Assembly: GCF_900454025.1 (NCBI RefSeq)
Contig: NZ_UGQM01000001.1
Coordinates: 1-64,000, forward strand
Reading direction: 5' to 3'
DNA: 64,000 nt
Source of the DNA: Mycolicibacterium gilvum
Lineage (GTDB): Bacteria > Actinomycetota > Actinomycetes > Mycobacteriales > Mycobacteriaceae
Shown here: in pieces, positions 12,532-29,104 of the stretch
How positions within the stretch are numbered: the first letter of the stretch is position 1
Layout: the number at the start of each line of letters is the position of its first letter
Position numbers and translations under genes: made by a program
The notes under the pieces: model-generated
Seen by the model: only the letters and a program-made list of their open reading frames with translations
What the model was told of the DNA's origin: nothing
Database searches by the model: none

Positions 12532-12588
12532 GGGGCCTTAGCTCAGTTGGTAGAGCGCTGCCTTTGCAAGGCAGATGTCAGGAGTTCG
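12532..12588 (+). pseudogene. alaT: Host tRNA-Ala (TGC), 5' part split by island insertion
   Basis: The first 57 nt of a normal tRNA-Ala are present: acceptor strand GGGGCCT, D-arm, anticodon arm with TGC at 12565-12567, and the 5' T-stem AGGAG followed by TTCG. After TTCG the sequence departs from any tRNA. The missing 16 nt are at 29089-29104. Joined, the two parts make a perfect 73-nt tRNA-Ala with T-stem AGGAG/CTCCT and the G3:T70 pair that defines alanine identity. This piece alone cannot fold into a functional tRNA. Confidence 0.95.
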
Positions 12589-12605
12589 TGCCTTATCTGT
12601 AGGAG
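12581..12605. other. Left attachment junction (attL) of the tRNA-Ala island
   Basis: The host T-stem AGGAG and TTCG meet island sequence here. The 12-mer TATCTGTAGGAG at 12594-12605 is an imperfect inverted partner (11 of 12) of CTCCTAGAGATA at 29074-29085 beside the right junction. The only sequence shared by both junctions is TCG (12586-12588 and 29086-29088). Re-joining the two island ends gives a dyad of two 12-bp arms around TCGTGCCT, the architecture of a tyrosine-recombinase core site. Confidence 0.75.
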
Positions 12606-12639
12606 AGTGAGTTCGAAGTGGGGATGACCAGCGGTGACA

Positions 12640-12663
12640 CCGTCACGGTCATGTCCGTGACGG
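12640..12663 (+). repeat. Hairpin abutting the island tRNA-Ala
   Basis: A perfect 9-bp inverted repeat, CCGTCACGG (12640-12648) and CCGTGACGG (12655-12663), with a 6-nt loop. The second arm includes the first two bases of the tRNA. It could act in transcription or processing of the tRNA, or block read-through from the upstream tRNA operon; no poly-T tract follows. Confidence 0.5.
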
Positions 12664-12732
12664 GGCCATAGTTCAACGGTAGAACGGGGCCTTTGCAAGG
12701 CTCAGATCGGGGTTCGATTCCCCGTGGCTCCA
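12662..12732 (+). tRNA. Divergent tRNA-Ala (TGC) carried by the island
   Basis: A complete 71-nt cloverleaf. Acceptor GGGGCCA pairs with TGGCTCC including G3:T70, the alanyl-tRNA synthetase identity pair. The D-arm is GTTC-AACGGTA-GAAC with a short 7-nt loop. The anticodon arm is GGGCC-TTTGCAA-GGCTC with TGC at 12694-12696. The T-arm is CGGGG-TTCGATT-CCCCG and the discriminator is A. The body differs strongly from the host tRNA-Ala at 12532, and the D-arm looks like those of some phage or glycine tRNAs. CCA is not encoded. It probably supplies the function lost when the island split the host gene. Confidence 0.92.
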
Positions 12733-12814
12733 CGAATGGAGTACAGACGAATTCATATCTGAGACCTCCTTCCCGACGAGCAAAAGTGTCATACCCGTGG
12801 AGTACCACCGGATG

Positions 12815-13097
12815 CGGCCTTGATCAGCACCAGGTCCGGCGCTGGCGCTCCTGGCACCGCTGGACCACCCTGGCCATGCTTGCCCACGCCTTCCTGGCGG
12901 TGGCCACCGCGATCGAACGCGACACCACGGCCACCCCGGCAGGCCTGATCGCGTTGACCGTCAACGAGTTTCGACGTCTCTTCGACGCCCTGCTCCTGGC
13001 CACCACCCACACCATCGAAACCCTGCTGGCCTGGTCACGATGGCGACGACGACACCAATACCGAGCACGCCTTTCCCACTACAAACGGCGCGAACAC
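12815..13097 (+). pseudogene. IS701-family transposase 3' fragment
   Basis: This 283-bp segment encodes the C-terminal part of an IS701-type transposase (from LDQHQVRRWRSWHRW to SHYKRREH). It matches the copy at 17936-18218 without gaps and with at least one visible substitution, in the opposite orientation. Both termini of the IS are missing, so the fragment is dead. It joins directly onto the truncated resolvase at 13097/13098. Confidence 0.9.
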
Positions 13098-13474
13098 TCC
13101 GCCAGCGAGCCGAGGACGCCAATCATCATGCGCCCCGCCGGTGTGGAGTAGTCGATGCCGTCGGTGACCGACACCAGGGTGATGCCTCGCTCGGTCAACT
13201 CTTTGACGGTCTGAAGGACGTGAAGCATGTTGCGGCCCAGCCGGTCGAGTTTCCACACGACGACCGTGTCGCCCTCACGGACGTAGTCGAGGAGGGCAGC
13301 GAGGCCGGGCCGGTCGTCGCGGGAACCCGACATCACATCGGAGAACATCTTGCTGACCCCGGCGGTGGTGAGTGCCTCGTTCTGCTGATCAAGCGTCTGG
13401 GCCACGGTCGAGACGCGGGTGTAGCCGATGCGGGTGCCCATGGGCTTGGCGGAGGCGTCCGCGTACTGACTCAT
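13079..13474 (-). pseudogene. Serine recombinase (resolvase/invertase), C-terminally truncated
   Basis: The reading frame begins MSQYADASAKPMGTRIGYTR and contains the resolvase catalytic domain: IGYTRVSTVAQ with the nucleophilic Ser, the SGSRDDRPGLAALLDYV stretch, and VWKLDRLGRNMLHV. Homology stops at LGSLAE, where the frame runs into the IS701 fragment at 13097. The helix-turn-helix DNA-binding domain (about 60 residues) is lost, so the protein is probably inactive. It would normally resolve cointegrates of a Tn3-type or IS607-like element. Confidence 0.88.
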
Positions 13475-13492
13475 AACAGCGCCAACGCGATT

Positions 13493-13601
13493 ATCGAGAC
13501 GCCTATTTCTGCGACCAACATTCGAGACACGTCGACCTGGTCCTTCTTGGCGCTGCGAGCCGTGCAGCGCCCAGTCTCAGGTGTGATCCATTTCGAGACA
13601 C
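13493..13601. other. Candidate resolvase res site
   Basis: Three copies of a YTCGAGACRC-like motif lie just upstream of the resolvase start: ATCGAGACGC (13493-13502), TTCGAGACAC (13521-13530) and TTCGAGACAC (13592-13601). Repeated subsites next to the recombinase gene are what a res site looks like. The half-site pairing of a true res site was not established. Confidence 0.4.
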
Positions 13602-13741
13602 GCCTGGCAGTGACTAGCAACAGTAGAAACGTCAGTCGCCTCAACTGCAAAGTCTGGGCAGAGCATCAGAGTCTGACCTGAGTTAGGACATTTTGCTTAG
13701 TGCCCCGGTTCCGGGGATGCCGAGGCGGACCAATCGTGGCG

Positions 13742-15997
13742 TCAGACGGGCGTCGCGTTGAGGATTTCAACGTCGACCTCGGTAACCCGTAACACCCGGC
13801 TCGACCCGATGTCGAAGAAGAGCCCGGCCAACTCGACTCGTTGCTCCGTGGTGGCGGGTCCGACGACGGGATGGCCCCTCAGAGTGTGCAACTGCTGAGC
13901 CACGTTCACCATGGCCAACTGGTCGCAGGGATCGAATCCGGCGGCGGCTGCCGCCCGGCCGACTGGGTGGCCGGCGCGAAGCGCATGCAGACTCGGCGCC
14001 GCCTGGTCAACCCATGCTGCGACCGCAGCCGGGATACCGTCGTTATGACCGGCTTCGACAAGCAACGCTTTCATCGCCCCGCACCCGGAATGTCCACAGA
14101 CGATGACGGTGTTGACGTCTAACTCGATGACGCCATACGCCAGCGCCGCTTCCACCGACATGTCGGCACCGTTCGGCGGGACGATATTGCCGAGGTTGCG
14201 CACGGTGAAAAGGTCGCCCGGTCCACTGGCGGTGATCAGGTTGGGTACGACGCGCGAGTCGGCGCACGTCAGAAACAGGGCGTGCGGTCGCTGCCCGTGG
14301 CGTAGATCATCGAAATGTCCAAGAAGCAGCGGAGCGTGTCGGCGGTGATAACGCGCGATGCCCTCCAACACCGGGGCGAGTGTCGAACCGGTCCCGTCGT
14401 CGTGGTGGCTGTGGGCACGCCAGGGCAAGAGTAAGCGCGCGATTCCGGGCTGCGGCCGGCGAATCGGCGGTCCGGCGGTGGCTTCTGTCATCGCGGTCCC
14501 GCCGATCTCGTCGATGACGACGGTCCCGCCGGTCGCGCGGTGCCGTCGGGCCCAGTCCTCAATGACCTCATAGGCGGCGTGGTCGAGGAAGTCGACGGTT
14601 ATCTCGACGGTGACGTGGCTGCCGTCCGGGACCGAGGCCAGCACATGCGACAACCGAGGCAACGACAGGAAGCTAAGTGTCCCTTCCAGGGTGACACGCC
14701 AGCGGTTAGAACCCTGCTCGCCGATCGGCTCGGCATGCACCGATGCGCGTACCACCCGCCACAACACCACCACGAGGGACACCGCGATGCCGAGGGCGAC
14801 CCCTTCCAGCAGGTTCAAGAACATTACCCCGGCGACCGTGACGGCATACACCCCCAGGTCGCCGGTGCGGTGAGCCAGCCGGATGTGCGCCAACTTGACC
14901 AGCTGGATGCCGATCACAACCAGCAACCCGGCCAGTGCCGCCTTCGGTATCTGCTGCACCAGACCGGCCAACAGCAAAGAAAACACCATCACCCACACGC
15001 CGTGCAGGATCGCCGAAGCTTGAGTGCGCGCACCTGCGGTGACGTTGGTGGCGCTGCGGACGATCACGCCGGTCACCGGCAGGCCCCCGAGCATCCCCGA
15101 CGCCATGTTGGCCGCCCCCTGACCGATGAGCTCGCGGTCCAGATTCGCCTTGCGGCCGCCGTGCATCTTGTCGACCGCGACGGCCGACAGCAGGGTCTCC
15201 ACACTGGCGATCAACGCGAACGTCAGCACGGCCAAAGCGAACGCGAACCATCTGCCGTCCGGCAAGGCCGGCAGGCCGACCGCGTCGAAAATCGAGCCGT
15301 TGAATTCAAGTCTGTCGGCGTTGACCGGCGGAATCAGCGACACCAGCGTGGCGGCGACGATCGCCACCAGCGGCCCGGGCAGTTTCTGTAACCAGGCCGG
15401 CATCCACTTCCAGCCCAGCATCACCGCGACTACGACCAGCCCCACGGCGACGTCGCTGAGATGTGGGGAACGAATCTGATCCGGCAACGCCGACAAGTTG
15501 CCCCACACCGAACTCATAGACGTGTGGCCCATCAGAACGTGGACTTGCTGGAACGCGATCGTGATGCCGATTCCGGCGAGCATCGCGTGCACCACTATCG
15601 GCGATATGGCCAGCGCTGTTCGCGCGATGCGGCTTAGACCGAAGATGATCTGCAACACGCCCGCCGCGACCGTGATCGCGGTGGTGACTTTCCAGCCGAA
15701 GGTGTCCACAGTCTGGGCCACCACGACGGTCAACCCAGCTGCCGGGCCTGCTACCAGCAGCGGCGCCCCGCCCAGTACTCCGGCGATGATCCCGCCGACC
15801 ACCGCGGCAATCAGGCCCGCCATGATCGGCGCGTTGGAGGCGATGGCGATGCCCAACGACAGCGGCAACGCCACCAAGAACACCACGATCGACGCCGGCA
15901 CGTCGTACCGCACTACGGATCTCAGCAGGTCACGGAGCGCCGTCGGCTGGCGGACGGGTGCGTCGTCAGCTGTGGCGGTCGAAGCGGGTACGGGCAT
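13742..15997 (-). CDS. SulP anion transporter fused to beta-carbonic anhydrase
   Basis: A 751-residue fusion. The N-terminal half is a SulP/SLC26 permease with about 10-12 hydrophobic segments, followed by a short STAS-like domain (about 420-490). The C-terminal 200 residues form a beta-class carbonic anhydrase with zinc motifs LTCADSRV and CGHSGCGAMK. Such fusions (Rv3273 type) are thought to import bicarbonate and interconvert it with CO2. A promoter-proximal duplication lies just upstream. It is the largest intact metabolic gene in the island and has no obvious operon partner. Confidence 0.93.
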   Translation of the reverse strand: MPVPASTATADDAPVRQPTALRDLLRSVVRYDVPASIVVFLVALPLSLGIAIASNAPIMAGLIAAVVGGIIAGVLGGAPLLVAGPAAGLTVVVAQTVDTFGWKVTTAITVAAGVLQIIFGLSRIARTALAISPIVVHAMLAGIGITIAFQQVHVLMGHTSMSSVWGNLSALPDQIRSPHLSDVAVGLVVVAVMLGWKWMPAWLQKLPGPLVAIVAATLVSLIPPVNADRLEFNGSIFDAVGLPALPDGRWFAFALAVLTFALIASVETLLSAVAVDKMHGGRKANLDRELIGQGAANMASGMLGGLPVTGVIVRSATNVTAGARTQASAILHGVWVMVFSLLLAGLVQQIPKAALAGLLVVIGIQLVKLAHIRLAHRTGDLGVYAVTVAGVMFLNLLEGVALGIAVSLVVVLWRVVRASVHAEPIGEQGSNRWRVTLEGTLSFLSLPRLSHVLASVPDGSHVTVEITVDFLDHAAYEVIEDWARRHRATGGTVVIDEIGGTAMTEATAGPPIRRPQPGIARLLLPWRAHSHHDDGTGSTLAPVLEGIARYHRRHAPLLLGHFDDLRHGQRPHALFLTCADSRVVPNLITASGPGDLFTVRNLGNIVPPNGADMSVEAALAYGVIELDVNTVIVCGHSGCGAMKALLVEAGHNDGIPAAVAAWVDQAAPSLHALRAGHPVGRAAAAAGFDPCDQLAMVNVAQQLHTLRGHPVVGPATTEQRVELAGLFFDIGSSRVLRVTEVDVEILNATPV

Positions 15998-16067
15998 GGC
16001 AAGTCATCCTATCCGTGCGTCGTCAAACACCCAGTGTGCCGAAGAAAGTGGACATGGCAAGTCATCC
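15995..16067. repeat. 15-bp direct repeat covering the sulP-CA start
   Basis: CATGGCAAGTCATCC occurs at 15995-16009, containing the transporter start codon on the minus strand, and again at 16053-16067. The duplication of a leader and start context 58 bp apart could come from a small tandem duplication, or could form a regulator-binding direct repeat. Confidence 0.6.
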
Positions 16068-16144
16068 GATGTACCCGACGCCCCGCTCGCCACCCAGACC
16101 CTTGCTGAGCGCGCGACGGTGCGGGCCAGACCTACCCTGATCTC

Positions 16145-16418: not shown

Positions 16419-17807
16419 TCACGGCAGGCCGAACCAGCGCTCTCGGCGCTGGGGGGCGAAGTCCCGCTTCTCGGCAGCCAGTGCGGCGGATGGTCCCTCC
16501 AGAACCCCGGTCGGTTTGGCGCCGCTCAGGAAGTTGGCGTGCACCTTGCCGACCTCGCCGCGGCCGAACTCGATGAAGCAGTCACCAGCTCCGTCGTACG
16601 GCGGCGGCCGCGGTGTCCCCCGCAGTCGCGCGGCGATGTCGTCGGCGACGACCGCGCGGGCGCGGGTCTCTTGGGCGTAGAGCGTCTTCTGATCGCGCCG
16701 CGCTCGTTTGGCCGAATACGCCCAGATCGCCCGCCACGCCCCCTGATGATCGTCGGGGTTCCACACCGGTTCGGCTCGGTGCGCGATGTCGTTGACGGTG
16801 CTGTTGGCGTGCCGAGGTGTGACGGTGTCGATGATCTGCCGATCGGTGAAAACGTCACCGTTCCAATGGAAATGCGAGGCAAGGTCGATCGGGACCTTCA
16901 CGCTGCGTGACCCAACGATGAACCCCAACCCGGCCTCATCGAGTGCGGTGAGGTTCGACGCCCAGAGCATGCCGGCGTCCGCGGCCACCACCATCGGAGT
17001 ATCGGTCAGGTCGTGACGTTCGGCGAAGGCGGTGATGATCGGCACCAGGGTGGTGGACTCGGCGGTGTTGCCCTCGAAACAGCCGATCTCCAAGGGGAAC
17101 CCGGTGCGATCGACCAACAGACCGATGACGATCTGGGGGTCGATGCGGCGTTCCCTGGAGTACCCGACCTTGCGCAGGTCGTCTTCGTTCTCGGCCTCGA
17201 AGTACAACGTCGTCACGTCGTACAACAACAGGCTCAACCCGCCCCGGTCGGCGGCGTGGGTGAAGCACTTCCCAGCGATGGCGTCGCGGTACTTGCCGGT
17301 GTTGATCTTCACCAGGTGACGTTGAATCGTCCTGTACGACACCGTGTCTGCGCCCAGATCGGTCAGCACCCGCGCCGCGTCGACCTTGCTGGTGGGCTCC
17401 ACGATCCGAGCGATCACCAACTCCCTGAACACGCCGTCATCGACCTCGTCGAAACCGAGCCAGTCATAGACCACGCCGATAATGTCGTAGAGCAGCCGCG
17501 AATGGGTCGAGGTGGTACGCCCCGGCGGCGCCGGGGCACCCTTGGGCCGGGTCGTCGCGGGAATCAGCGCACCGGCCCGCCAGTCTGCGATCCCATCGAC
17601 GGATTGGGTCCGGGCCGCCACCTCGATATCGAGAACACCTTGATCCTCGGCGGCCATGCGGCGGGCCCGCTCGAGCAAGATCCCCAGCTGCGCATCGGTA
17701 TGGGCTGACCCCACATGAGCCAGGATCGTCCGTTGACCTCGATGTTTACGCACGACCTGCACCGCCACCGCACCCGAGGCCGTGCGCACCCTCCGCACGT
17801 ACGCCAC
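16419..17807 (-). pseudogene. IS1634/IS1549-family transposase, C-terminally truncated
   Basis: The 462-residue frame begins MAYVRRVRTASGAVAVQVVR and has the IS1634-family DDE core, including LLYDVTTLYFEAENEDDLRK and PMVVAADAGMLW. IS1634-type transposases are normally longer and continue with a conserved KGYVTN-type region after the helical insertion. That region is absent; the last 50 residues are atypical, so a frameshift or deletion has removed the catalytic C-terminus. It is probably inactive. Its right flank contains relics of other genes. Confidence 0.8.
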
Positions 17808-17823
17808 CGCCTGAACTTACCCA

Positions 17824-17866: not shown

Positions 17867-19301
17867 TCAGTCCATCGGCAATCCAAAAACCAACCGGCCG
17901 CGTCCTAATACTGCAGCCGTAGATCGGGAGCATTGGTGTTCGCGCCGTTTGTAGTGGGAAAGGCGTGCTCGGTATTGGTGTCGTCGTCGCCATCGTGACC
18001 AGGCCAGCAGGGTTTCGATGGTGTGGGTGGTGGCCAGGAGCAGGGCGTCGAAGAGACGTCGAAACTCGTTGACGGTCAACGCGATCAGGCCTGCCGGGGT
18101 GGCCGTGGTGTCGCGTTCGATCGCGGTGGCCACCGCCAGGAAGGCGTGGGCGAGCATGGCCAGGGTGGTCCAGCGGTGCCAGGAGCGCCAGCGCCGGACC
18201 TGGTGCTGATCAAGGCCGGTGAGTCCTTTGGCTGCCTGGAAGGACTCCTCGAAGCGCCAGCGCTGCCCGGCCACGGCCACCAGCGTGCGCAGTGGCACCG
18301 GGCGCGGGCTGTAGCAGCGTAGGTAGGCGTGCTCGCCGGTAGTGTCGTTGCGGCGGATCAGCAAATGGTGCACACCAGTGTCGGTGTCGTCTTCGGCCAA
18401 CAGGCGAAACCAGGTCCAGGAGTACAGACGTGGGCCGTGCGCCCCGGCGCCGGCGGAGTGTTTCCGCCAGGCGTGTGCCGGGATGAGCGCGGGTAACTCG
18501 TCGACACGGATCGGACCCGCGTGGGTGGGCACGCGCCGATTGGCCGCTACAGCCAGCACGTAGCCCAGGTCATGACCACGAATGGTTGCGCGCAGGCGCG
18601 GGTCGGCGCCATAGACTTCGTCGCCGGCCACCCACGCCGCGGGAACCTTCGCGGCCACCGCGCGGTCGATCAGCGTGACAGCCAAGGCAGGTTTGGTAGC
18701 GAAACCCCGCTTATCCGCAGGGATTCCGGGCATCGGTGCACCGGTCATCGTCGTCGGCCCAGCTACGCAGAAGATACAGCGCCCGATCGATCAAGGCGTG
18801 CCCGCGCGGTGCTGCATACATCAAATACACCGCGACTTGAGAGTTCTCGATACGCCCAGCAGTGCCACTGTACTGACGTTGCACCCCGACACTGTGGATG
18901 CCCTTCTTCACGTCGCCGGTCTCGTCGACCACCAGAATCGCGCCTCGGTCGCCGAACGCATCGACGACATAGTCACGCAGATCGTCGCGGACATCGTCGG
19001 CGCCCCAGCTCGCCCGTGCCAGCAGGTGCTGTAACCCGTCGGGACTGACAGCGCCACGGTGCTCGGCGATGGTCCAGCAATTCTTGCGATCCAGGCCCGA
19101 GACCATCCCCGACATCAACTCCGCGGCATGCAGAAGTGGTTCGTAGCGACGAAATCGCGGCGCGATCCGGTCGATCACCGCAGAGAACTCCGTCTGCCAC
19201 CGATCAGGGTCTACGCTGTGAACCGCGGCGCCGCGGCGTATTCGGTTGTCTTCACAAACTCTGAACAATGCCGCGGTCACCGCTCCTACCAGCGCAGACA
19301 C
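17867..19301 (-). pseudogene. IS701-family transposase, frameshifted
   Basis: Two overlapping frames together encode a full IS701 transposase. The first (from 19301) carries AILVVDETGDVKKG with a catalytic Asp, and RALYLLRSWADD. The second (ending 17867) starts in homology at GIPADKRGFATKPALA and continues through GDEVYGADPRLR to the C-terminus. Alignment of the two needs one base removed around 18725 (GCCC to GCC), so a single extra C breaks the gene. A programmed +1 shift is possible but not known in this family. Confidence 0.85.
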
Positions 19302-19341
19302 GCCAGCATCACTAATCCCTATCTACGGCTGCAGTACTAGG
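17904..19341 (-). mobile_element. IS701-family insertion sequence
   Basis: A 1438-bp element bounded by imperfect 21-bp terminal repeats: CCTAATACTGCAGCCGTAGAT at 17904-17924 (first base shared with flank) and its inverse at 19321-19341 with one mismatch. The inner 16 bp, TACTGCAGCCGTAGAT, are identical. IS701 elements duplicate a YTAR target; here the flanks are CTAA on the left and CTAG on the right, so they do not match, suggesting recombination after insertion. The right end provides the stop codon of the neighbouring dipeptidase. Confidence 0.85.
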
Positions 19342-20293
19342 CCTGCCAGGCGCGTTGCGCTACGCGATAGAAGTTGCCTCCAAGGACTGCCCGAATGTCT
19401 TCGTCGGACCAACCCCGTTCCGTGAGGTGCTCACCAAGAGTTAGAAGCGTTTCGGGTGGCATCCACTGAATCGCTCCCCACCGGGTATAGCTGGCATCGA
19501 ACAGGTGAGGGTTGCGGGTGAGTTCTTCGACGAAGTCCGCGTAGTCGAAGGAAAAGTCGGTGCTGATGCCGACGTGGTCGATGCCCACCAGGTCGACGGC
19601 GTACTCGAGGTGGCGTGTCATCGCCTCCAGCGTCGGCGTGTTGGGGCCCAGGAAAATACCGACGCCGGTGATTCCTATAACCCCACCGGTGGCGGCGCAC
19701 GCCCGTGCCTGGTCATCGGTGATGTTGCGCGGGTGATCCCAGACTGCCCGCATGCAGGAGTGGCTGTAAATGACCGGGCCGCTTGAGGTGTCGCACATGT
19801 CGAGCCCGGTGCGAGGGCTGCAGTGCGAACCGTCGGGAACGATGCCGACAGCGTTCATTTCGGCGATGATCGCCCGGCCCCACGCGGTGAGACCACAGTC
19901 GGTGGTGTCCAGGCAGCCATGGCCGGCGCGGTTGGCGTGGTTGTAGGTCGGCAACAACGTGCGCACGCCGAGCTCAGAGAGCGTGACCAGGTTGTCGAGG
20001 TTGTTATCGAGGGGCCGTGAGTCTTCGAGGTCGAACACCACGGCGATACGTCCAGCGCCGGTAATCGCGGCGACGTCATCGGAACTGGCCGCCAGTTCCA
20101 TCGATGGGTGCGCATCGACCGCGGCACGATAGTGCGCCAGCAGCGCCATGGTGGCGTTGAAGCTGTGCGGCGAATACCCTGCATTGACGGACACGAATGC
20201 GCCGCCATCACGCTGATACCGGGTCAGCAGGTCCACGTCGGCCACGGGCTGCAAGGGCAGACAGGTGTGCTGATCCCAAAGGAGCGAGGTCAT
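19337..20293 (-). CDS. Membrane dipeptidase-like metallopeptidase (M19 family)
   Basis: A 318-residue M19 (renal dipeptidase type) zinc hydrolase that would cleave dipeptides. Visible ligands include WDQHTCLP near the N-terminus, the bridging Glu in FDLEDS, and the two histidines in PDGSHCS and YSHSC. The classical DxHxD motif reads DQHTC, so the second Asp is Cys, as I recall for a subset of the family. I chose ATG 20293; the longer frame to 20476 is antisense to the acetyltransferase relic. The stop codon lies in the IS701 terminus, so a few C-terminal residues may be altered. Confidence 0.8.
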   Translation of the reverse strand: MTSLLWDQHTCLPLQPVADVDLLTRYQRDGGAFVSVNAGYSPHSFNATMALLAHYRAAVDAHPSMELAASSDDVAAITGAGRIAVVFDLEDSRPLDNNLDNLVTLSELGVRTLLPTYNHANRAGHGCLDTTDCGLTAWGRAIIAEMNAVGIVPDGSHCSPRTGLDMCDTSSGPVIYSHSCMRAVWDHPRNITDDQARACAATGGVIGITGVGIFLGPNTPTLEAMTRHLEYAVDLVGIDHVGISTDFSFDYADFVEELTRNPHLFDASYTRWGAIQWMPPETLLTLGEHLTERGWSDEDIRAVLGGNFYRVAQRAWQA

Positions 20294-20832
20294 GGCTATC
20301 GATCCTGCATCATCGGGGCCGCCAATCGCCTTACCTTTTCGCACCGAGCGGCTGACCATTCGGCCCCTGACGCTAATCGACGTCGAGGCCATGCATGTCG
20401 TGTATTCCGACCCCGCGGTCACGCGGTTCATCCCGGGCGGGGTGCGCGACGCGGACGGAACGCGCCAACGTGTCATCGACTTGATCGCCCACCATGAGTG
20501 TTATGGAGTGAGCAAATGGGCTGTGACGCTGAATGATTCGGGTGTTTGATCGGTGACTGCGGGTTGCAGTTCTTGCCTGGGCGGCCGGATTTGGAACTGG
20601 GGTTTCACCTCGCTCGGGAGTATTGGGGACACGGGTGTGCCACGGAAGCCGCTTCAGCGTGCCTGGGCTGGGCGTTAATCAACCGAACCGAACGGGTCGT
20701 GGCCATCGTTGACCCCCAACACCGGACCTCGCAACGGGTTCTGACCAAGCTTGGGCATGCAGCCCGTGGGACGTGACCACATACTTTGACCGAACCTGGA
20801 TCGTCTATGAGGCCACCGGTGAGCGGGAGTAG
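20292..20832 (+). pseudogene. GNAT acetyltransferase, multiply frameshifted
   Basis: Conceptual translation gives a complete GNAT protein of the RimJ/RimL type: LPFRTERLTIRPLTLIDVEA, then a frame change at about 20545 to GDCGLQFLPGRPDLELGFHL and REYWGHGCATEA, then two more changes near 20755 and 20790 before DRTWIVYEATGERE. At least three single-base shifts make it a pseudogene. Its ATG overlaps the dipeptidase ATG on the other strand, so the two genes were divergent. Confidence 0.85.
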
Positions 20833-21216: not shown

Positions 21217-22356
21217 CTAGACCATGCTGAGGTGCCGGGCGCGGGGCCCGTTGCTTGCCGATCCGAAGAGAGCGCCGCGTTGCGCGCTGGTGAGCAGCGT
21301 GATGTCGTCGAGTTCGTTGCTGGTGTAGCCGGCGGCGGTGAGTTGGTCGAGTACGGTGCCAACGAGCTGGGGCACCTCCTCGGCCACGCCCGGGCGTGGG
21401 CCGTACATGCGGCCGGTCTCATTGAGCAGCCGGAACATCGACCGGTACTGATATCCGGACAGCACACCGCGCTCGTGGGCCCGCACGACCAGCGACGACG
21501 CGCTCACACCCCAAGTGAGACGCAGCTCGTCGAGTTCGTGCACGGTCCGCACCGACACGCGGTCCAAGTCGAAGCCGATATCGCCGATAGGTGCAAGGAA
21601 CTCGGCGGCGAAACTGTTGGCCCGGCGCTCGACTTCGGCGGGGCTGACCAGTGTCATCGCGTCCATGACGAGATGACCGAGTTCGTGGGCCAGCGTCATC
21701 CGCATGCGGTCGGGCGGCCGGGCCGCGTTGACATACACCAGGTGCGGGTGATGCTCACTTGCACGCAGGGTCACCGCGTCGATCTCGTCGTCGAGAAAGT
21801 CGTCGACCACAACGAACACGCCTGCGGCTTCGAGCAATTCGGTCATGGACCGGATCGGGCCGGCGATACGCCACAAGCGGCGCAGAACCTGGGCGACGGT
21901 GATCTCGCCGAGCTCGGACGCGAAGTCGGCCGGGTCAAGATCGGGAAGCGCGAGCTTGGGGTTGATGTCGGCGTGCGACACCAGGCGGCCGATCCGCATC
22001 GCGACAAGATTCGCCCGGGCCCACACGCGGTCACGCTTCCACTCAGCCGCACTCAGGTTGGCCCGGAAATGGCTGCCCTGAGCGGGGGACCGGGTGAAGG
22101 GCACACACAACGCCTCCGGCCGGCATCCCATGGCCTGCGCGTAGTCGAGCAAGGCCTTCCCCGCCAGGGGCAGCAGTCCCGCCTCCACTCTGCTGACGTG
22201 TGAGGCGGATACCGCGGCCTCGTCGGCCAACCGCTTTTTCGACCATCCACACGACAGTCGGGTCAACTGCACCATCACGCTGTTCGCCGCGTCGTCGTAC
22301 GGATTCGGTGCCGTCACAGATCGCCTCCCATCCGTCTCGGTGCTGTCTTCCGACAC
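21217..22356 (-). CDS. XRE-family regulator with ImmA/IrrE metallopeptidase domain
   Basis: A 379-residue two-domain protein. Residues about 30-85 form a Cro/CI helix-turn-helix (SKKRLADEAAVSASHVSRVE). The central part is a DUF955/ImmA-IrrE peptidase with the HExxH motif in TLAHELGHLVMDAM and a downstream Glu in RRANSFAAEFLAP. Proteins of this kind often cleave or control repressors in mobile elements and toxin-antitoxin modules. GTG 22356 is the start; the divergent recombinase cluster begins 230 nt upstream. Its target is unknown. Confidence 0.9.
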   Translation of the reverse strand: MSEDSTETDGRRSVTAPNPYDDAANSVMVQLTRLSCGWSKKRLADEAAVSASHVSRVEAGLLPLAGKALLDYAQAMGCRPEALCVPFTRSPAQGSHFRANLSAAEWKRDRVWARANLVAMRIGRLVSHADINPKLALPDLDPADFASELGEITVAQVLRRLWRIAGPIRSMTELLEAAGVFVVVDDFLDDEIDAVTLRASEHHPHLVYVNAARPPDRMRMTLAHELGHLVMDAMTLVSPAEVERRANSFAAEFLAPIGDIGFDLDRVSVRTVHELDELRLTWGVSASSLVVRAHERGVLSGYQYRSMFRLLNETGRMYGPRPGVAEEVPQLVGTVLDQLTAAGYTSNELDDITLLTSAQRGALFGSASNGPRARHLSMV

Positions 22357-22527
22357 TAGCCCGTCGTTGCCGCGGAATCGCGTAGAAACACCGTTTGATC
22401 TGCGTTTTCCCAGTTCACACTCGCTATCCGGCGTGGGACGTGTGTGGCTGGTGTGACGATAGCCAATTTTCGGCCCGGGCGCTCGCCAAACTGCGGCCCC
22501 GTGCGCGAACGGCGTGTCTTCCAGACC

Positions 22528-22567
22528 AAAACCTTACCACGGTCTGCACGATTCTATGCAAGGTTTT
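22528..22567. promoter_or_regulatory. Inverted repeat upstream of the recombinase operon
   Basis: AAAACCTT (22528-22535) and AAGGTTTT (22560-22567) are perfect inverses separated by 24 nt, in the divergent gap between the XRE/ImmA gene and the recombinase operon. It is a plausible operator for the XRE protein, or a recombinase binding site. Confidence 0.45.
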
Positions 22568-22585
22568 CGGCTGAAAGGCGGGGTC

Positions 22586-23290
22586 GTGACAGCTCCGATG
22601 GATCAACCCACCGCACCCGAGGGTCCGGTCTCTCGCAAGGAGGCCCGGCGGCTGCTCAAACAGGTGACGGTCGGGGTGGGAGCGATGCTGCTGGCTGCGG
22701 TCGATGACTGGAATGCGTTGTCGGCGAGGCACTCCGCGCATCTTCGGACGGTGATGCAAGGGCTCGGACGCGGCGCTTATGTGGCGGCCGCCGTTGCGGC
22801 GGGCACCGATGTATGGCTGAGCACGCACGGAATGCATCCACCCGGACACACCGTCGTGAAGCCCTACCGCTGGCCCGAGATCAGCAGCCGCGGGAAGACA
22901 CACATGATGATCCACCACAACGAGATGGAACCGACCACCCCGCGGCGGACCGCGTTCTTCACCCAGGACTCGGCGACCCTGGGCCTGGTCGGCGATCCCA
23001 CTCATTGCGAGCTCACGTGGGACTACGACATCGTCACCGACACCCACATCCGTCGGATCTGGGTCAGCGCCCCGGGTGTCGACTGGGACCGCTTCGAGGT
23101 CCCCATGGCCAAAGTGCAGGCCCAATACGCGACGTGGCGCAATCGTGACATGAAATGGCTGCCCGGGGCGCTGCCCACTGACACCGCCGCAGCCGAGCCG
23201 ATGCCGTCTCGCGAACCGCAGGAAGACCTGCGGCCCGACATCCAGGTGCGGCGGCCCCGGCGCCCCGAGGAAACCCGGGATGCCGAGTGA
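22586..23290 (+). CDS. Hypothetical protein leading the recombinase operon
   Basis: A 234-residue protein from GTG 22586 (ribosome binding site GAAAGGCGG 13 nt upstream): (V/M)TAPMDQPTAPEGPVSRKEAR. I do not recognise a domain. It has an N-terminal helical part (LLKQVTVGVGAMLLAAVDDW), an Ala-rich segment, a central region rich in aromatic and His residues, and a charged C-terminal tail rich in Pro and Arg. Its stop overlaps the GTG of the next recombinase (GTGA), so it is coupled to it and may be an accessory factor of recombination. Confidence 0.7.
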   Translation: MTAPMDQPTAPEGPVSRKEARRLLKQVTVGVGAMLLAAVDDWNALSARHSAHLRTVMQGLGRGAYVAAAVAAGTDVWLSTHGMHPPGHTVVKPYRWPEISSRGKTHMMIHHNEMEPTTPRRTAFFTQDSATLGLVGDPTHCELTWDYDIVTDTHIRRIWVSAPGVDWDRFEVPMAKVQAQYATWRNRDMKWLPGALPTDTAAAEPMPSREPQEDLRPDIQVRRPRRPEETRDAE

Positions 23291-24399
23291 GGGCGGCACC
23301 GGTGTCCATCCACGGACGGGCGACGTGGACCGTGGTGGACGCATCGGGCCTACCGATCGGGGAGGTCGAGCAGTTCCTGCACTGGCTGCGCGCGGTCGGT
23401 CGTTCCCAGAACACCGTCCGCTCGTATGCACGCCACCTGAGCTTGTTCTACCGGTGGCTGGGCGCGCGCGGAATCCCCTGGGACGCCGTGGTATTCGACG
23501 CACTGTGCGATTTTGTGGGCGCCCTGTCCGCCGGTTTGCCGCCTCTGCCGACCCGCACGGGCAGCCGGGCGCCGGGAACGGTGAAGGCGGTCAGCGCGGC
23601 CGTCCGCGAGTTCTACGAGTTCCATCGTGTAGAAGGCCGCGGACCGCAGGATCTCGTGTTGACCCGCAACCCATCTCGGCTCCCGCGCCGGTCACACAAC
23701 TTCCTGTCCCACATCGAGCAACGACACCCGAGTGCGGTCTCCCGGTTGACCCGGCCGGGCAAACAGCCCGCGGAGACCGTGCAGACGATCGACTTCGAGG
23801 CGGACTTCGCGACGTTGCTGGCGGCGGCGTCGACCTGCCGCGACCGGCTGCTGCTCTCCGCGCTGTATGACCTGGGGCTGCGGATCGGGCAGGCGTTGGG
23901 GTTGCGGCACGCCGACCTGGACCCGATGCGCAAGCGAGTTCAGGTATGTCGCCGGGAAGACAACACCAACGGGGCGCTGTCAAAGCAGCGCGCACAGTTC
24001 GCGGTGGACGCGCCCCGCCGGTTCTTCGACCTGTACGCCGCCTACCTACTCGGTGAGATCAGCGGCATAGACAGTGATTACGTCTTCGTCAACCTGTCCC
24101 GGCCCCCGATCGGCGGACCGCTGTCGTACTCGAACGCCTACCAGATCATCGAACATATCGGCTCGGCTGCGGGTCTCGACGGGCTGCACCCGCACATGCT
24201 GCGCCACACCCACGCCACCGCCCTGGCGAAGGCCGGCTGGACATCGGCCGAGATCGCCGCCCGGCTCGGGCAATCTCACGCCGCCAGCGCCGACGTCTAT
24301 ATCCACCTCGCCAGCGACGACCTGGCAGACCGGCTGCGCCGCACCGAGCGTCTGGTGTGGGCGCCACCGCAGCCCGGGGCAGGCCGTGAGAAACGTTGA
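23287..24399 (+). CDS. Tyrosine recombinase 1 (TnpA-like)
   Basis: A 370-residue phage-integrase-family recombinase. The N-terminal SAM-like core-binding domain (QFLHWLRAVGRSQNTVRSYA) is followed by the catalytic domain with the first Arg in YDLGLRIGQALGLRHAD, the HxLRH box in HPHMLRHTHATALA, and the nucleophilic Tyr in SADVYIHLA. All catalytic residues look intact. It overlaps both neighbours and corresponds in size and order to TnpA of Tn554-like elements. It is a candidate for the island integrase. Confidence 0.92.
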   Translation: MRAAPVSIHGRATWTVVDASGLPIGEVEQFLHWLRAVGRSQNTVRSYARHLSLFYRWLGARGIPWDAVVFDALCDFVGALSAGLPPLPTRTGSRAPGTVKAVSAAVREFYEFHRVEGRGPQDLVLTRNPSRLPRRSHNFLSHIEQRHPSAVSRLTRPGKQPAETVQTIDFEADFATLLAAASTCRDRLLLSALYDLGLRIGQALGLRHADLDPMRKRVQVCRREDNTNGALSKQRAQFAVDAPRRFFDLYAAYLLGEISGIDSDYVFVNLSRPPIGGPLSYSNAYQIIEHIGSAAGLDGLHPHMLRHTHATALAKAGWTSAEIAARLGQSHAASADVYIHLASDDLADRLRRTERLVWAPPQPGAGREKR

Positions 24400-26392
24400 A
24401 TCCCAGCGAGGCTCCTCCCGGGGAGGTCGCCGTTCGCCGCTACAGGTGCCCGACGGGCCGTGGTGTCAGCCGACGTGGCAGGTCGTCGAAACAGCCGGAG
24501 ACCGCCGCCGCCGGGCCACCGACCCCTGCGCCGTCGACGCATGCAAGAGCGAGCGGTACTGGCTTGGCGGCCCCCAGACCACCGGCGAACGACGCGGATT
24601 GTGCTACGCGCACTACTTCCAATGGTTCCGCGCCGGCCAGCCCGCCGACTTCACCGCTTGGGCGAACTTCGAAGCCCGGCCGGTCGGAGCCCCGCGCGGC
24701 TACCTCTCGGCCCAGGTCGTCGACTTCCGGCGGTTACCGCAGGTCGCGGCCGATGAGATCCGGTTCGTCGTTGCCACCAAAGTCCGCCGCGGCGACTGGA
24801 CCCCCAACACCAGCCTCCGCCGCTTCCTCATGGTGCTGATCGACACCGCCGACGGGCGAATCACCGACTCGCTTACCGAGCGACCCACTGAGGACTGGCT
24901 TCTGCTGTGCCGGCAACATTGGCCGCACACCAGCTCGTTCGACTCGCTGTGCGCGCCCTACCTTCGGCGCTTCTTCCGGCTCCTCGACGGCGCCACCAAC
25001 CCCAACCTGTGGGCCGACGACCATTGGCACTGGCGAGACGGATTCGAATTCGTCCTCGACGCAACCCAATCCGGATCGACACACACAGCCGTGGACTGGT
25101 CCACGGTGCCCCTGCCGTGGCTGCGGACTGCGGTCAAAGAACTCGCACGACGACAGCTCACCACCGCCACCATGTCGTGGGGAACGCTGACCCAGTGGGT
25201 GCGCGCCACCCGCCAACTCGCCCGGTTCCTCACCCGCGACGACGAGCAGCCGGAGCCGTGCGCGGTGACCAGGCCGGTCTTCCTTGACTACCTGGCGTGG
25301 ACGCGTCGACCGGACACCGAAGCGGACTCCCGGCTCGCCAATACCGCTGCCTACCTGCTGGAGTCGCTGCACGACACCCAGATCGTGCCCGATCTCGGGG
25401 CGGCGGTGTTCCTCCGACGAGGCGAAAACGTGCACCGCAAGACCCGCAGCCCCCGCCCGTTCCCGCCGGACGTGATCGACCGCGTCGACACACTGATCGT
25501 CGACAACCCCGCAACCGACCCCACCCTGCGGTCGATGATCGCCACGACCCGGTGGGCAGGCTGCCGCATCTCCGAACTGGTCGCACTGCCCATCGACTGC
25601 CTGCACCGCTCCGACGCGGGCTACTGGATCGAATACTGGATGCCCAAAACCCGAGCATGGCGCCGATTCCCCATCCCCGACAGCCTCGCAACAATCGTCC
25701 TCGACCAGCAGACCCGCGTCCGCGACACCTACGGACCCGACGCCGAACACCTATTCCCAGGCGCTCGGTCGAACGCCGCCGCCGGCCGCACCCAACCCTG
25801 GTCGACCAGCGGCCTCCGGCACCGACTCGCCGCCCTGTTCACCGAACACGGGATCACCACCTCAACCATCACCGGCGAGCCGATCTCCGGCGGCGACGTG
25901 CACCGCTTCCGGCACACCATCGGAACCACGCTGCTCAACAACGGGTGGACCCAACAAGAAGTACGTGACTTCCTCGGCCACCACAGCGACACCATGACCT
26001 CTGCATACGCCCGCATCACCGACGACACCCTCGCCCGCAAAGCACGCGAATTCTGGGACAGCGCCACCGCCGACACGACCAACACCGATGCCGATGTTGA
26101 GCGACTCCGGGCCCGATTCACCATGGCTCTGCCCAACGGATTCTGTACTCTCCCAACGGCACAACGCTGCGAATTCCGGCCCAACCCCTGCCTCGACTGC
26201 TCCTTCCACGACCCCGGCGGCCGCGTCTTCCTCGGCGCCCACATCGCCCACCGCGACCAACTGCAACGCCTCACCGCGGACGCCCGCGAATGCGGCGACA
26301 CAGCCGCCGTCGAGTTGAACACGGCGATGCTCGACAAAGTCACCAAGCTGATCAGCGAAATCGACCCGAAGACCTCGCAGGACGCCCAGTGA
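24386..26392 (+). CDS. Tyrosine recombinase 2 (TnpB-like, large)
   Basis: A 668-residue recombinase, starting at GTG 24386 inside the end of the previous gene. The N-terminal region contains a Cys-containing motif (CAVDACKSERYW...CYAHYF) that may bind zinc. The C-terminal catalytic domain shows Arg in RWAGCRISELVALPID, HRFRHTIGTTLL and LGHHSDTMTSAYARI with Tyr. A further Cys cluster near the end (CEFRPNPCLDCSFH) may bind metal. Size and place between a TnpA-like and a small DUF6262 protein fit TnpB of Tn554-like transposons. Confidence 0.92.
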   Translation: MRNVESQRGSSRGGRRSPLQVPDGPWCQPTWQVVETAGDRRRRATDPCAVDACKSERYWLGGPQTTGERRGLCYAHYFQWFRAGQPADFTAWANFEARPVGAPRGYLSAQVVDFRRLPQVAADEIRFVVATKVRRGDWTPNTSLRRFLMVLIDTADGRITDSLTERPTEDWLLLCRQHWPHTSSFDSLCAPYLRRFFRLLDGATNPNLWADDHWHWRDGFEFVLDATQSGSTHTAVDWSTVPLPWLRTAVKELARRQLTTATMSWGTLTQWVRATRQLARFLTRDDEQPEPCAVTRPVFLDYLAWTRRPDTEADSRLANTAAYLLESLHDTQIVPDLGAAVFLRRGENVHRKTRSPRPFPPDVIDRVDTLIVDNPATDPTLRSMIATTRWAGCRISELVALPIDCLHRSDAGYWIEYWMPKTRAWRRFPIPDSLATIVLDQQTRVRDTYGPDAEHLFPGARSNAAAGRTQPWSTSGLRHRLAALFTEHGITTSTITGEPISGGDVHRFRHTIGTTLLNNGWTQQEVRDFLGHHSDTMTSAYARITDDTLARKAREFWDSATADTTNTDADVERLRARFTMALPNGFCTLPTAQRCEFRPNPCLDCSFHDPGGRVFLGAHIAHRDQLQRLTADARECGDTAAVELNTAMLDKVTKLISEIDPKTSQDAQ

Positions 26393-26802
26393 GCGCCGGT
26401 GACCGCGAACGCCGCACCGCCCGCCTGGGCGAAGCTGCCGCCGCTCGCACCGCAGACGCCGCAGCGCGCGCCCGCAGGGCGATCACAAAACTGCGCAACA
26501 CCGGTGAACCCGTCACCTTCGTCGCCGTCGCCCGTGAGGCGAGTGTGTCAACCAGCTTCCTCTACCAGCACAGCCAACTCCGCAATGACATCACCACTCT
26601 CAGGACCACCGCCAGTGCCGCGGCGGCGACCGGAGTTAAATCCGCCGCCAGCATCGAATCGCTCCGCACCAAACTGGCAGCCGCCATCGCCCGAAACCGT
26701 GAGCTCACCGAAGAGATCGCACAGCTACGCACCGAAAACGAAGCGCTCCGCAGCCGACTCCTCGAAATCCGCACTCCCGCAGCAGCAACTTGTCCGTCTT
26801 AG
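26389..26802 (+). CDS. DUF6262 (TnpC-like) accessory protein
   Basis: A 137-residue, highly charged and Ala-rich protein starting at GTG 26389, overlapping recombinase 2 by four bases. It has a predicted helix-turn-helix-like segment (VTFVAVAREASVSTSFLYQH) and a C-terminal coiled coil (about 90-125). This is the usual third gene after paired tyrosine recombinases in Actinobacteria and matches TnpC in position, which affects transposition frequency and orientation in Tn554. Function here is inferred. Confidence 0.85.
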   Translation: MSAGDRERRTARLGEAAAARTADAAARARRAITKLRNTGEPVTFVAVAREASVSTSFLYQHSQLRNDITTLRTTASAAAATGVKSAASIESLRTKLAAAIARNRELTEEIAQLRTENEALRSRLLEIRTPAAATCPS

Positions 26803-26878
26803 CGCCGTCAGCAGCCGCCCACGGTTGGATTGCCCGCTAACGGGGACCAGTCGTGTCCGGATGGCTTGTGCACCAATC

Positions 26879-28198
26879 TTAGTCGCGCTGTCCGATGCGA
26901 TGATTGCGGCCTCGTGAGGAACTTAGTCTGGCGCGGAACTTCTCAATCTCCGTTGCGAGTTGGGCCCTGATCTCGGCGAACGTAGCCCGCCGCTGCTCCG
27001 GGTGATTGAGAAGTGTCGTACAGGCTGCGGCGAGCAGGCGCGAGGTGGTGAACAGCTTGGTCGACTGAAGGTCGCGGTTGATCACTCGCAGCAGGGTGGC
27101 CGCGCCGTCCGGATCGTTTGCAACCCGCCGGAGGAGCTCGGTGACCAGCGGTGAAGGTGCCCCTGGTGGGGCCATCTGCATGGCGAACCAGTACATGTCG
27201 TAGGAACTGCGGTCGCGGTGCTGCCACCAGCGTTTCATCGCCTCGTCTTGGGCGGTCGCCGAGCCGGCCGATGCGCTGATGGCCGTCGACAGCGCCTTGG
27301 CCTGGCAGAGCGCGTCGGAGATGCCCTGACCGGGGGTGAAATCCTTGAAATGCCCGGCATCCCCGACCAGTACCCACCCCGGTCCGGCCGATTCCCGAAA
27401 GTAGCTGTGCCAGTTCGCCATCACCCGCAGCGGACCGTCACGTTCGGCGCCGCCCACGATGTCATCGAGCTCAGGCCAGGCGCGAATTGCGTTGCGGAAA
27501 TTGGCTTCTCGATCCCGATGGAAATTGTGCGCAGCGTCATGGTCGACAGCGACCGTCGCCATGTACAGGCCCGAGTCTGTCGGGCTGGCGAGGAAGGCCA
27601 GGTTGCCTTTTCGACCGATCCGTAGTCGGGGTTCGTGCGGCCCAGTGGCAAAGTAGCCCCAGACCGGTATACGCCCCGCAGGTTTTACCAGGTACTTGTG
27701 CGCGCCCACCGACTCGGCAATCACCGACCCGCGGCCGTCAGCCCCGACCACCAGACCAGCTTCCAGTGGCCCGTGCGCGGTGTCGATACCGATGACTCTT
27801 CCGCCGGACCTGCGGGCACCGGTGACTCGGCATCTGGTTCGCACATCGGCACCGGCGTCCCTGGCTATCTGCAGCAAGGCCTGATCGAGGATCGTCCGGC
27901 GCACGTTTAGTCCCGGATGTGTGTATCGGTCATCGAGGACACCGTCGATGCGGATGTCGTCGATCACCACGCTGAATCGGTCCAACTGTGCCGCACTGCG
28001 AGCCAGCAGCGGCTCCAACGCGCCGAGTTCGTCAAGGATCGCCACGCCCCGGGGCTGCAGCACATGGGTGGACGGTGTCTCACTCGGAAAGGCAGCCTTA
28101 TCGATAAGGCAGACCCGCATGCCGGCCCGCGCCAAGTAAATGGCGAGCGCTGAACCAGCACAACGCGCACCCACCACGACAACGTCGAACGATTCCAT
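26879..28198 (-). CDS. FAD-dependent monooxygenase/oxidoreductase
   Basis: A 439-residue flavoprotein of the aromatic hydroxylase/UbiH class. It shows the dinucleotide fold VVVGARCAGSALAIYLARAG at residues about 6-25, the DG motif VVGADGRGS and the GD motif VLVGDAGHFKDFTPGQG. The substrate is unknown. I chose ATG 28198 (MESFDVVVVG) with GGAGAAG upstream over the longer frame. It is divergent from a TetR regulator, which probably represses it in response to an aromatic or lipophilic ligand. Confidence 0.88.
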   Translation of the reverse strand: MESFDVVVVGARCAGSALAIYLARAGMRVCLIDKAAFPSETPSTHVLQPRGVAILDELGALEPLLARSAAQLDRFSVVIDDIRIDGVLDDRYTHPGLNVRRTILDQALLQIARDAGADVRTRCRVTGARRSGGRVIGIDTAHGPLEAGLVVGADGRGSVIAESVGAHKYLVKPAGRIPVWGYFATGPHEPRLRIGRKGNLAFLASPTDSGLYMATVAVDHDAAHNFHRDREANFRNAIRAWPELDDIVGGAERDGPLRVMANWHSYFRESAGPGWVLVGDAGHFKDFTPGQGISDALCQAKALSTAISASAGSATAQDEAMKRWWQHRDRSSYDMYWFAMQMAPPGAPSPLVTELLRRVANDPDGAATLLRVINRDLQSTKLFTTSRLLAAACTTLLNHPEQRRATFAEIRAQLATEIEKFRARLSSSRGRNHRIGQRD

Positions 28199-28227
28199 GG
28201 GCACTTCTCCGCGCGGCTCGCCTGACG

Positions 28228-28274
28228 AACTTACCAATGGTTAAAGTAGCGATGATCTGCAAACTTATCAATGG
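28228..28274. promoter_or_regulatory. Candidate TetR operator (direct repeat)
   Basis: AACTTACCAATGG (28228-28240) and AACTTATCAATGG (28262-28274) are direct repeats differing at one base, 34 nt apart, in the gap between the flavoprotein and the TetR gene. The first copy has a partly palindromic centre (ACCA-A-TGGT). The second includes the upstream ATG at 28271, which argues that translation of the regulator begins at 28304. Confidence 0.55.
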
Positions 28275-28303
28275 CAAAATCGTCTACGCAGTATCCTGCA
28301 GCA

Positions 28304-28927
28304 ATGTCTGAAGCTGGGGAGCACCGGCACTACCACCACGGTGACCTCCGAGCAGCGGCGGTCGCCGCGGCGGTCGCCGAGGTCGAGGAAGTGGGCATTT
28401 CGGCAGCTTCGATGCGCCGAATCGCACGAAGGGCGGGTGTGACACACGCGGCCCTCGCTCATCACTTCGCCCACAAAACCGGTCTGTTCACCGCCGTTGC
28501 CACAGAAGGATTTAGGCGAATGGCGGAGGCGATCGAGCCAGCCGCATCTGGTGATCGGGGATTCCTGTACGGGGGCGCGGAGTACGTGAGGTTCGCACTC
28601 GAGAACCGTGGGTTCTACGAGGTGTTGTTCCGCCCCTACCTATGCCATCAGGACGACCGAGACCTCAAGCAGGCTCGGACAGCGGCCTTCGACATCCTCT
28701 ACGGAACCGCCCGGCGAAGCCTAGCCAGTGTTTGCGATGCCGATACCCTCACCGATGCCGACGTTGCCAGCCTCGTCATCGCCGGCTGGTCGATGTCTCA
28801 CGGCTACGCGACCCTCCTGGCGACCGAAAACCTCGCCGACCGGCCGTCCGGAGACATCCTTCGCGGAGTCGAGCTCCTCGCCAGGCTGGTCGGTAGTCCG
28901 CCGAACGACAACGAGGCGACGCGCTAG
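28304..28927 (+). CDS. TetR/AcrR-family transcriptional regulator
   Basis: A 207-residue repressor (from ATG 28304, MSEAGEHRHYHHGDL). The N-terminal helix-turn-helix includes SMRRIARRAGVTHAALAHHF and HKTGLFTAVATEGF. The C-terminal ligand domain resembles the WHG type. It is divergent from the flavoprotein gene and probably autoregulates through the intergenic direct repeat. The in-frame ATG at 28271 is an alternative start. It is the last intact gene before the right island end. Confidence 0.88.
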   Translation: MSEAGEHRHYHHGDLRAAAVAAAVAEVEEVGISAASMRRIARRAGVTHAALAHHFAHKTGLFTAVATEGFRRMAEAIEPAASGDRGFLYGGAEYVRFALENRGFYEVLFRPYLCHQDDRDLKQARTAAFDILYGTARRSLASVCDADTLTDADVASLVIAGWSMSHGYATLLATENLADRPSGDILRGVELLARLVGSPPNDNEATR

Positions 28928-29008
28928 CTCCAGTTGTCGAGATGGACAGGGGGCTCGGCGCGACTGAACACGAGCAGCGCCGCCGTCAACGACTTCCTAG
29001 AGATAATC

Positions 29009-29055
29009 CGTCCACGACGACGGGCCGACGCTTCGCTGTGGGCCCGTCGTGGACG
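29009..29055. repeat. Long hairpin near the right island end
   Basis: CGTCCACGACGACGGGCC (29009-29026) is the inverse of a segment ending at 29055 (GGCCCGTCGTGGACG), apart from a 3-bp ACG insertion; the loop is about 14 nt. It follows the TetR gene and may be its terminator. It lies between two copies of TCCTAGAGATA (28995-29005 and 29075-29085), so it could also be part of the recombination site. Confidence 0.6.
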
Positions 29056-29073
29056 TCGACTCCACGCTCGGGC

Positions 29074-29104
29074 CTCCTAGAGATATCGAATCTCCTAGGC
29101 TCCA
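29074..29104. other. Right attachment junction (attR) of the island
   Basis: Island sequence ending CTCCTAGAGATA (29074-29085) meets TCG and the host tRNA-Ala 3' end. The arm is the inverse of TATCTGTAGGAG at the left junction (11 of 12). An additional direct copy TCCTAGAGATA at 28995-29005 may be an integrase arm site. Confidence 0.75.
29089..29104 (+). pseudogene. alaT: Host tRNA-Ala (TGC), displaced 3' part
   Basis: AATCTCCTAGGCTCCA completes the T-loop, the 3' T-stem (CTCCT), the acceptor strand (AGGCTCC) and the discriminator A of the tRNA-Ala whose first 57 nt are at 12532-12588. The preceding TCG (29086-29088) is common to both junctions. On its own it is non-functional. Confidence 0.93.

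Follow-up and report, generated by a model that had tools for sequence, protein, structure and literature searches.

The mobile elements related to Tn554 carry one normal and one long tyrosine recombinase together with a TnpC-like third gene and, as described in the available parts of PMC3414803 and PMC10214605, combine target specificity with a fixed orientation and a 6-bp footprint that replaces a target duplication. Here we describe an element of Mycolicibacterium gilvum that resembles them, located within the first 64,000 nucleotides of contig NZ_UGQM01000001.1 (assembly GCF_900454025.1); this whole stretch, referred to as the window, had received an initial annotation made from its letters alone. 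The three properties are shared, and a row of tnpA-, tnpB- and tnpC-like genes encodes two Phage_integrase proteins of 370 and about 668 amino acids and a DUF6262 protein; the likeness is drawn from gene set and description, the tnpB product being about 28% identical, over about 40-47% of the length, to recombinases of Staphylococcus and Enterococcus plasmids, some of which are annotated beside DUF6262. Tn554 itself has its target, att554, in radC. That target is not shared, and radC defines Tn554 itself rather than the wider group; unlike the Tn554 relatives, the present element targets the T-loop of alaT, the host gene for tRNA-Ala(TGC), and carries a replacement tRNA, a cargo unmentioned in the available parts of the two papers.

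Other described systems are similar in part. In the SE elements the target 6-mer stays at one end, the donor 6-mer arrives at the other, and donor copies can persist; SEs, however, have IntA, Tfp, IntB and Srap and gammaproteobacterial hosts, the accessible part of their description does not contain the word tRNA, and no Tfp-like gene lies here between tnpA and tnpB, which overlap. GInts are likewise multi-recombinase genomic islands with a 6-nt staggered exchange and a TnpC-like protein, GinD, but they are built on ginABCD and tRNA is unmentioned in the accessible part of PMC5385486, whereas three genes with two catalytic recombinases are found here. Tycheposons, compared by secondary description only, are similar in outline, with a border tRNA gene and a tyrosine (XerD-like) recombinase, and the portion of PMC10872708 that treats them makes no mention of a host tRNA that is split and separately replaced. 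Conventional tRNA-targeting islands also combine a tRNA gene as the site with a tyrosine recombinase (Islander, PMC4383910; PMC8371274, in the parts available), but they restore the target gene, an intact tRNA gene being reconstituted upon integration according to the available text of the review PMC8371274. The alaT-splitting family breaks this rule, since the host halves stay apart and another tRNA is supplied; it offers a concrete case of mobile elements splitting tRNA genes, and island finders that presume a restored tRNA would miss it. No described mycobacterial element of this kind was known to the initial annotation, and none was found among the best-ranked literature matches, mainly open-licence papers judged by title and start of the abstract. 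The recombination machinery is known, and the tRNA-replacement strategy appears to be new.

The split alaT gene and its replacement

The host genes of the window follow the order gyrA, a DUF3566 gene, tRNA-Ile(GAT) (12323..12397, forward strand, called by ARAGORN) and alaT. As had been claimed from the letters, alaT is broken within its T-loop, its 57-nt 5' part (12532..12588, forward strand) and 16-nt 3' part (29089..29104) flanking the island, and ARAGORN accepts the two parts, when joined, as a 73-nt tRNA-Ala(TGC). This 57/16 split point is apparent only, because the 6-mer at the left junction, CGTGCC (12587..12592, forward strand), and that at the right junction, CGAATC (29087..29092), both start with CG. 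The left 6-mer varies between alaT copies and is a foreign footprint of the previous site; the right one is alaT's own. Comparison of the junctions places the last true host base on the left at 12586 and the 3' part, with its own 6-mer, at 29087..29104 (forward strand), and the 6-bp overlap seen among copies refines the element proper to 12593-29086, that is, 16,494 bp. The divergent, complete tRNA-Ala(TGC) of the initial annotation was confirmed at 12662..12733 (forward strand), 69 bp inside the left end; ARAGORN and its fold show full stems and a G3-U70 pair, and it is 97-100% identical to its counterparts in other split genomes of the same type.

In relatives the site is empty and alaT uninterrupted: single alignments of 89% identity span the junction in G099 and G027, and the four relatives in which the site was read (L050, L051, L052 and L054, of 12 loci) all hold an intact tRNA-Ala(TGC). 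In the window's own assembly (6.43 Mb, 11 contigs, 100% complete), RF00005 matched at 49 places when searched against the whole genome. ARAGORN calls a gene at 47 of these, which leaves the 5' alaT stump and, at C1:5037249, a weak match of 33 bits. The alanine anticodons present are CGC and GGC, with TGC solely in the island, and neither Rfam nor ARAGORN found another tRNA-Ala(TGC) in the 6.43-Mb assembly. Decoding of GCA requires a UGC anticodon, and 44 GCA codons are used across the six open reading frames read.

We consider it highly probable that these are Tn554-like elements which break a tRNA gene that the cell needs, provide a substitute in return and are hard to lose as a consequence. 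The fuller proposal, which we hold to be likely, is that a lineage of mobile elements takes over an essential tRNA, destroying alaT and supplying the sole UGC alanine tRNA, that it travels back and forth between alaT and plasmids, each move being recorded by 6 bp, that it has exchanged its own spare tRNA at least once, and that in several mycobacteria the only tRNA-Ala(UGC) is a domesticated piece of a dead element. The movers would be the two tyrosine recombinases with the TnpC/DUF6262 protein as a helper, and their preferred target the T-loop of tRNA-Ala(TGC), GTT[CGAATC]TCC, a conserved site. Insertion would leave the tRNA gene unrebuilt, with the target 6-mer at the right junction and a 6-mer from the previous site at the left, which would be why the element carries a complete tRNA-Ala(TGC) near its left end; this would make use of the T-loop survivable. 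Because insertion would be orientation-specific, the spare tRNA would come to lie just downstream of ileT and the 5' alaT stump, on the same strand and probably within reach of the host promoter, from which it may be expressed. Since the spare would usually be the sole tRNA-Ala(TGC) after insertion, and presumably essential, selection would retain this part once the recombinase genes were gone, and cell and element would come to depend on each other. Such a tRNA-replacing element would offer a toxin-free form of addiction.

Conservation of the element tRNA across genomes

The state of alaT was read in 21 genomes, scanned by pattern for tRNA-Ala(TGC) candidates, a procedure that very divergent tRNAs could escape; the full Rfam and ARAGORN check covered the genome of the window. 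In 19 of the 21, alaT is split or eroded (the 5' half is degraded in G094 and was not found in G044), and each of the 19 has one intact element tRNA next to the left end of the element and on the same strand as alaT; in G120 and G175 part of this reading comes from separate contigs. Exactly one alaT 3' half is present in 14 of these genomes and none in five (G120, G185, G190, G002 and G044). Further zero-mismatch tRNA hits are additional element copies and, in G486, a single truncated piece of a tRNA. G013 also shows tRNA copies in tandem, but the Ns at their joins mark them as probable products of scaffolding, and they were disregarded. The same arrangement, an island tRNA beside a split alaT, thus recurs in many species, in support of the claim that the element breaks the host gene and compensates with a spare.

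In the two genomes with an intact alaT, G087 and G088, the element tRNA has decayed, with bases or stem pairs lost, and the anticodon of the element tRNA is altered in the M. marinum plasmid pRAW. In five split genomes (G002, G044, G094, G185 and G190), tnpA relatives are absent or at most 38% identical and the element tRNA is kept intact. When 11 of the 19 split loci are compared pairwise, identity averages 98.3% for the tRNA, 77.9% for the 69 bp before it and 51.5% for the 69 bp after it, a comparison that omits G044, G094, G120, G175, G574 and three Tsukamurella-type loci. In G172 the acceptor stem shows a paired change, from C-G to T-A. The retention of the tRNA without a close tnpA, together with its decay where alaT is intact, gives indirect support to the initial suggestion that the element is hard to lose.

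In G087 the intact alaT is directly followed by remains of the left end and tRNA of the element (L097), and it is possible that this genome represents a reversion of the alaT takeover. Besides these, contig C1 of G087 holds another tRNA gene group with a tRNA-Ala(TGC) (L228). A 278-kb contig of G574 (C2, L227) contains an array of 19 tRNA genes within 3 kb, with a tRNA-Ala(TGC) among them.

Footprints of earlier insertions

All 14 right junctions read hold the alaT 6-mer CGAATC or CGATTC, part of whose last letters was fixed by the search pattern for the alaT 3' half, and this 6-mer abuts the right end of the element in 13 of them, G013 having an N at the join. The left 6-mers in alaT vary and include, besides the CGTGCC of the window, CGACAC, CGTTCT, CGCGCC, CAGTAA and others. 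The 19 alaT copies whose left junction is readable (17 from the 21 genomes, plus those of M. gordonae CTRI and T. tyrosinosolvens) share one T-loop position and orientation; secondary sites exist. The left 6-mer is of the alaT type in only three of these 19 copies (G175, G672 and G369) versus eight of 12 copies outside alaT (L105, L110, L113, L114, L152, the G088 copy and two in G120), the other four being L109, L111, the C137 copy of G013 and pRAW, a judgement call as its end is mutated. Fisher's exact test gives a p of 0.007 for this difference, a post hoc value from hand-entered counts that are not all independent. CGATTC could derive from the T-loop of the element tRNA itself as well as from the alaT of slow growers.

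Two copies of M. gordonae are informative as to where left 6-mers come from. In strain DSM 44160 (G120), the left 6-mer of the alaT copy, CGCGCA, equals the right 6-mer of another copy, and the CGGCGG to the left of the alaT copy in strain CTRI 14-8773 is found in G120 as a different right 6-mer. Most simply, the element would take along the 6-mer that adjoins its right end and deposit it to its left upon the next insertion; the same carriage is described for SEs and Tn554 relatives in the available part of PMC10214605. As copies outside alaT often carry an alaT 6-mer on their left, the footprints trace moves of the element and can be read as their record. The family also provides a natural experiment on the replacement of a core translation gene via horizontal transfer. 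G120 retains several element copies, which fits a copy-out movement without proving it. Several of the copies outside alaT are on plasmids, and these and other outside copies would be likely vehicles to new hosts.

Tsukamurella-type elements

A second type of element is found in T. tyrosinosolvens (L151), in G369, in G486, which belongs to another genus of the family, and in G587, which belongs to the genus of the window. Its left end is homologous, but of the first spare tRNA only a remnant of the 5' part is left, and a canonical tRNA-Ala(TGC) comes next; this was established by alignment for L151 and by visual reading for G369, G486 and G587. The requirement for this isoacceptor seems to have outlasted the first spare tRNA.

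The L151 record (NZ_LR134456.1) is labelled as a plasmid yet is probably chromosomal, since it carries gyrA and other core genes. In a second Tsukamurella copy (L115 12749-12800, NZ_LR134450.1), of which the left end was not found, the element ends at a 3' piece resembling tRNA-Ala, with which a long tRNA array begins, and the tRNAs of such arrays may be further targets.

Weighing the proposal and its alternatives

Several observations weigh against a takeover of alaT. G574 has another tRNA-Ala(TGC) in a tRNA array, and the element tRNA is not the sole copy there. Copies outside alaT also hold intact tRNAs, and intactness by itself proves nothing; the evidence therefore lies in the contrast with genomes that have an intact alaT, which rests on two genomes and does not extend to alaT in the organisms that carry L109, L111, L113, L114, L152 and pRAW. 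The three right ends of G120 all lack a junction with an alaT 3' half, and for this reason its copies have probably recombined and its alaT copy is rearranged. Finally, a scan for promoters and terminators of the element tRNA found no signal, a result that neither supports nor refutes read-through from the host genes.

An improbable alternative, though the best of those considered, is that the tRNA is cargo like that of phages, serving codon supply or defence against tRNA cutting, and that its benefit at alaT is a lucky by-product. Actinobacterial mobile elements and phages do carry tRNAs, tRNA-Ala included. Such cargo would not be expected, however, to consist in all 19 split genomes of one single tRNA, always of the destroyed isoacceptor, always on the left-end side and always on alaT's strand, nor to be swapped for a different tRNA-Ala(TGC), as happened in the Tsukamurella type. 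Moreover, none of 12 more distant Tn554-like loci (24-53% identity) has a tRNA-Ala nearby, and one has a tRNA-Tyr.

We consider it very unlikely that this is an ordinary tRNA-targeting island, with the complete tRNA as the rebuilt host gene and the pieces as the remnant that such islands usually displace. The outline would fit, since one end has a complete tRNA-Ala and the opposite end a 3' tRNA fragment; but the complete tRNA, at about 77% identity to the 5' half of the host gene, is a separate gene set within the element, the 5' alaT stump is still in place, the direct repeat of tRNA length is absent, the overlap being CG only, and the empty sites of relatives hold the host-type tRNA. Still less credible is a role of the spare tRNA mainly as a decoy that catches later insertions of related elements. 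The element tRNA does share the GTTCGATTC T-loop, and CGATTC footprints could stem from it or from the alaT of slow growers, but no insertion inside an element tRNA was met among the loci read, and where a genome has two element types (G013, G175 and M. gordonae CTRI) the second is located elsewhere. An error of assembly or scaffolding, to which the Ns and duplicated stretches at these repeats in the draft G013 might point, can practically be dismissed, since the same split junction occurs in independent genomes, including the single-contig genomes G002, G185 and G587.

Organization of the element

The element is bounded by the terminal inverted repeats TTATCTGTAGG (12593..12603) and CCTAGAGATAT (29076..29086, from the reading of the junction), both given on the forward strand; nine of the 11 letters of the left repeat match the reverse complement of the right end, and it is conserved among copies. 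The tnpA-like gene (23287..24399), the tnpB-like gene (24386..26392, an open frame with its start inferred from the M. farcinogenes annotation) and the tnpC-like gene (26389..26802, an open frame for about 137 amino acids, start likewise inferred) form one overlapping row on the forward strand, all three with Pfam matches. R, HxxR, H and Y, in this order, make up the tyrosine recombinase motif, and a motif check found them in the expected order in both recombinases; a serine-integrase or phage origin was ruled out, the recombinases being of the tyrosine type. In relatives, tnpA is accompanied by a gene for a helix-turn-helix, IrrE-like (Peptidase_M78) regulator (21217..22356, reverse strand, Pfam) and by orf258 (22514..23290, forward strand), which is without a family match, and these are counted with the core.

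The remaining genes of the element in the window are variable cargo and passengers. By Pfam, the reverse strand encodes a fusion of a SulP transporter with a carbonic anhydrase domain (13742..15997), an M19-family dipeptidase (19337..20476) and, in the interval from tnpC to the right end, an FAD-dependent oxidoreductase (26879..28237), and the forward strand a TetR-type regulator (28271..28927). The passengers, both on the reverse strand, are an IS1634-family transposase (16419..17807, NCBIfam, above the cut-off) and pieces of a DDE transposase in two frames (17867..19301, Pfam DDE_5). The oxidoreductase and TetR pair (26879-28927) has no counterpart at that place in the G672 element. In L093, L114, L136, L138 and L141 the block from the IrrE-like gene through orf258 to tnpABC is inverted relative to the element ends.

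The element tRNA likewise speaks against a phage origin: no viral contig matched its pattern, and among phage tRNAs the best match over the full length reaches 77% (one of 87% spans 46 nt only). A hairpin upstream of the element tRNA has an ordinary folding energy (z of -0.41 and -0.56). The bases following it (12710-12760) match those after the transfer-messenger RNA gene of G124 and G133 (L073, L076) at 86-88%; an island targeting that gene may have left an att arm within the element.

Distribution of the family

The left end with its tRNA has a good match (84-95% in relatives, E 5e-28 or better) in 12 of 198 genomes of the same genus, its own included; a further 177 of the 198 show a weak match, at the level of other tRNAs. 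A tnpA search at E 1e-60 gave 14 of 396 same-genus genomes and three of 397 across the order, with the window's own genome counted in both. The element tRNA pattern matched 16 genome-contig stretches, which include M. gordonae, M. shimoidei, M. kyorinense, M. peregrinum, M. sherrisii, M. hubeiense, M. chelonae S00154 and a plasmid of Ca. M. methanotrophicum. In the plasmid collection, most of the left end with the tRNA is present in seven of eight matching records, from M. avium, M. farcinogenes, M. marinum (four) and Ca. M. methanotrophicum. Two genomes, G573 (tnpA match of 53%) and G642 (partial match), were kept out of the 21, and neither the tRNA nor the alaT junction was found in the stretches of them that were read. 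In G642 (L143) several tnpA-like genes or pieces, 29-84% identical to the window's tnpA, lie within 10 kb.

Four species, with one genome each (G672, G574, G175 and G120), have elements of 9,988-9,992 bp that are 99.9-100% identical and differ in their left 6-mers, a near-identity that points to recent transfer; the host flanks of the sole pair compared, G672 and G574, are 81.4% identical over 526 aligned bp. The cargo of this element of about 10 kb includes an ArsR-type regulator and a P-type ATPase.

Outside the element, the gyrA frame of the window (8208-11291) has a match to an intein-splicing domain (E 5e-8, slightly below the Pfam cut-off), and GyrA may contain an intein.

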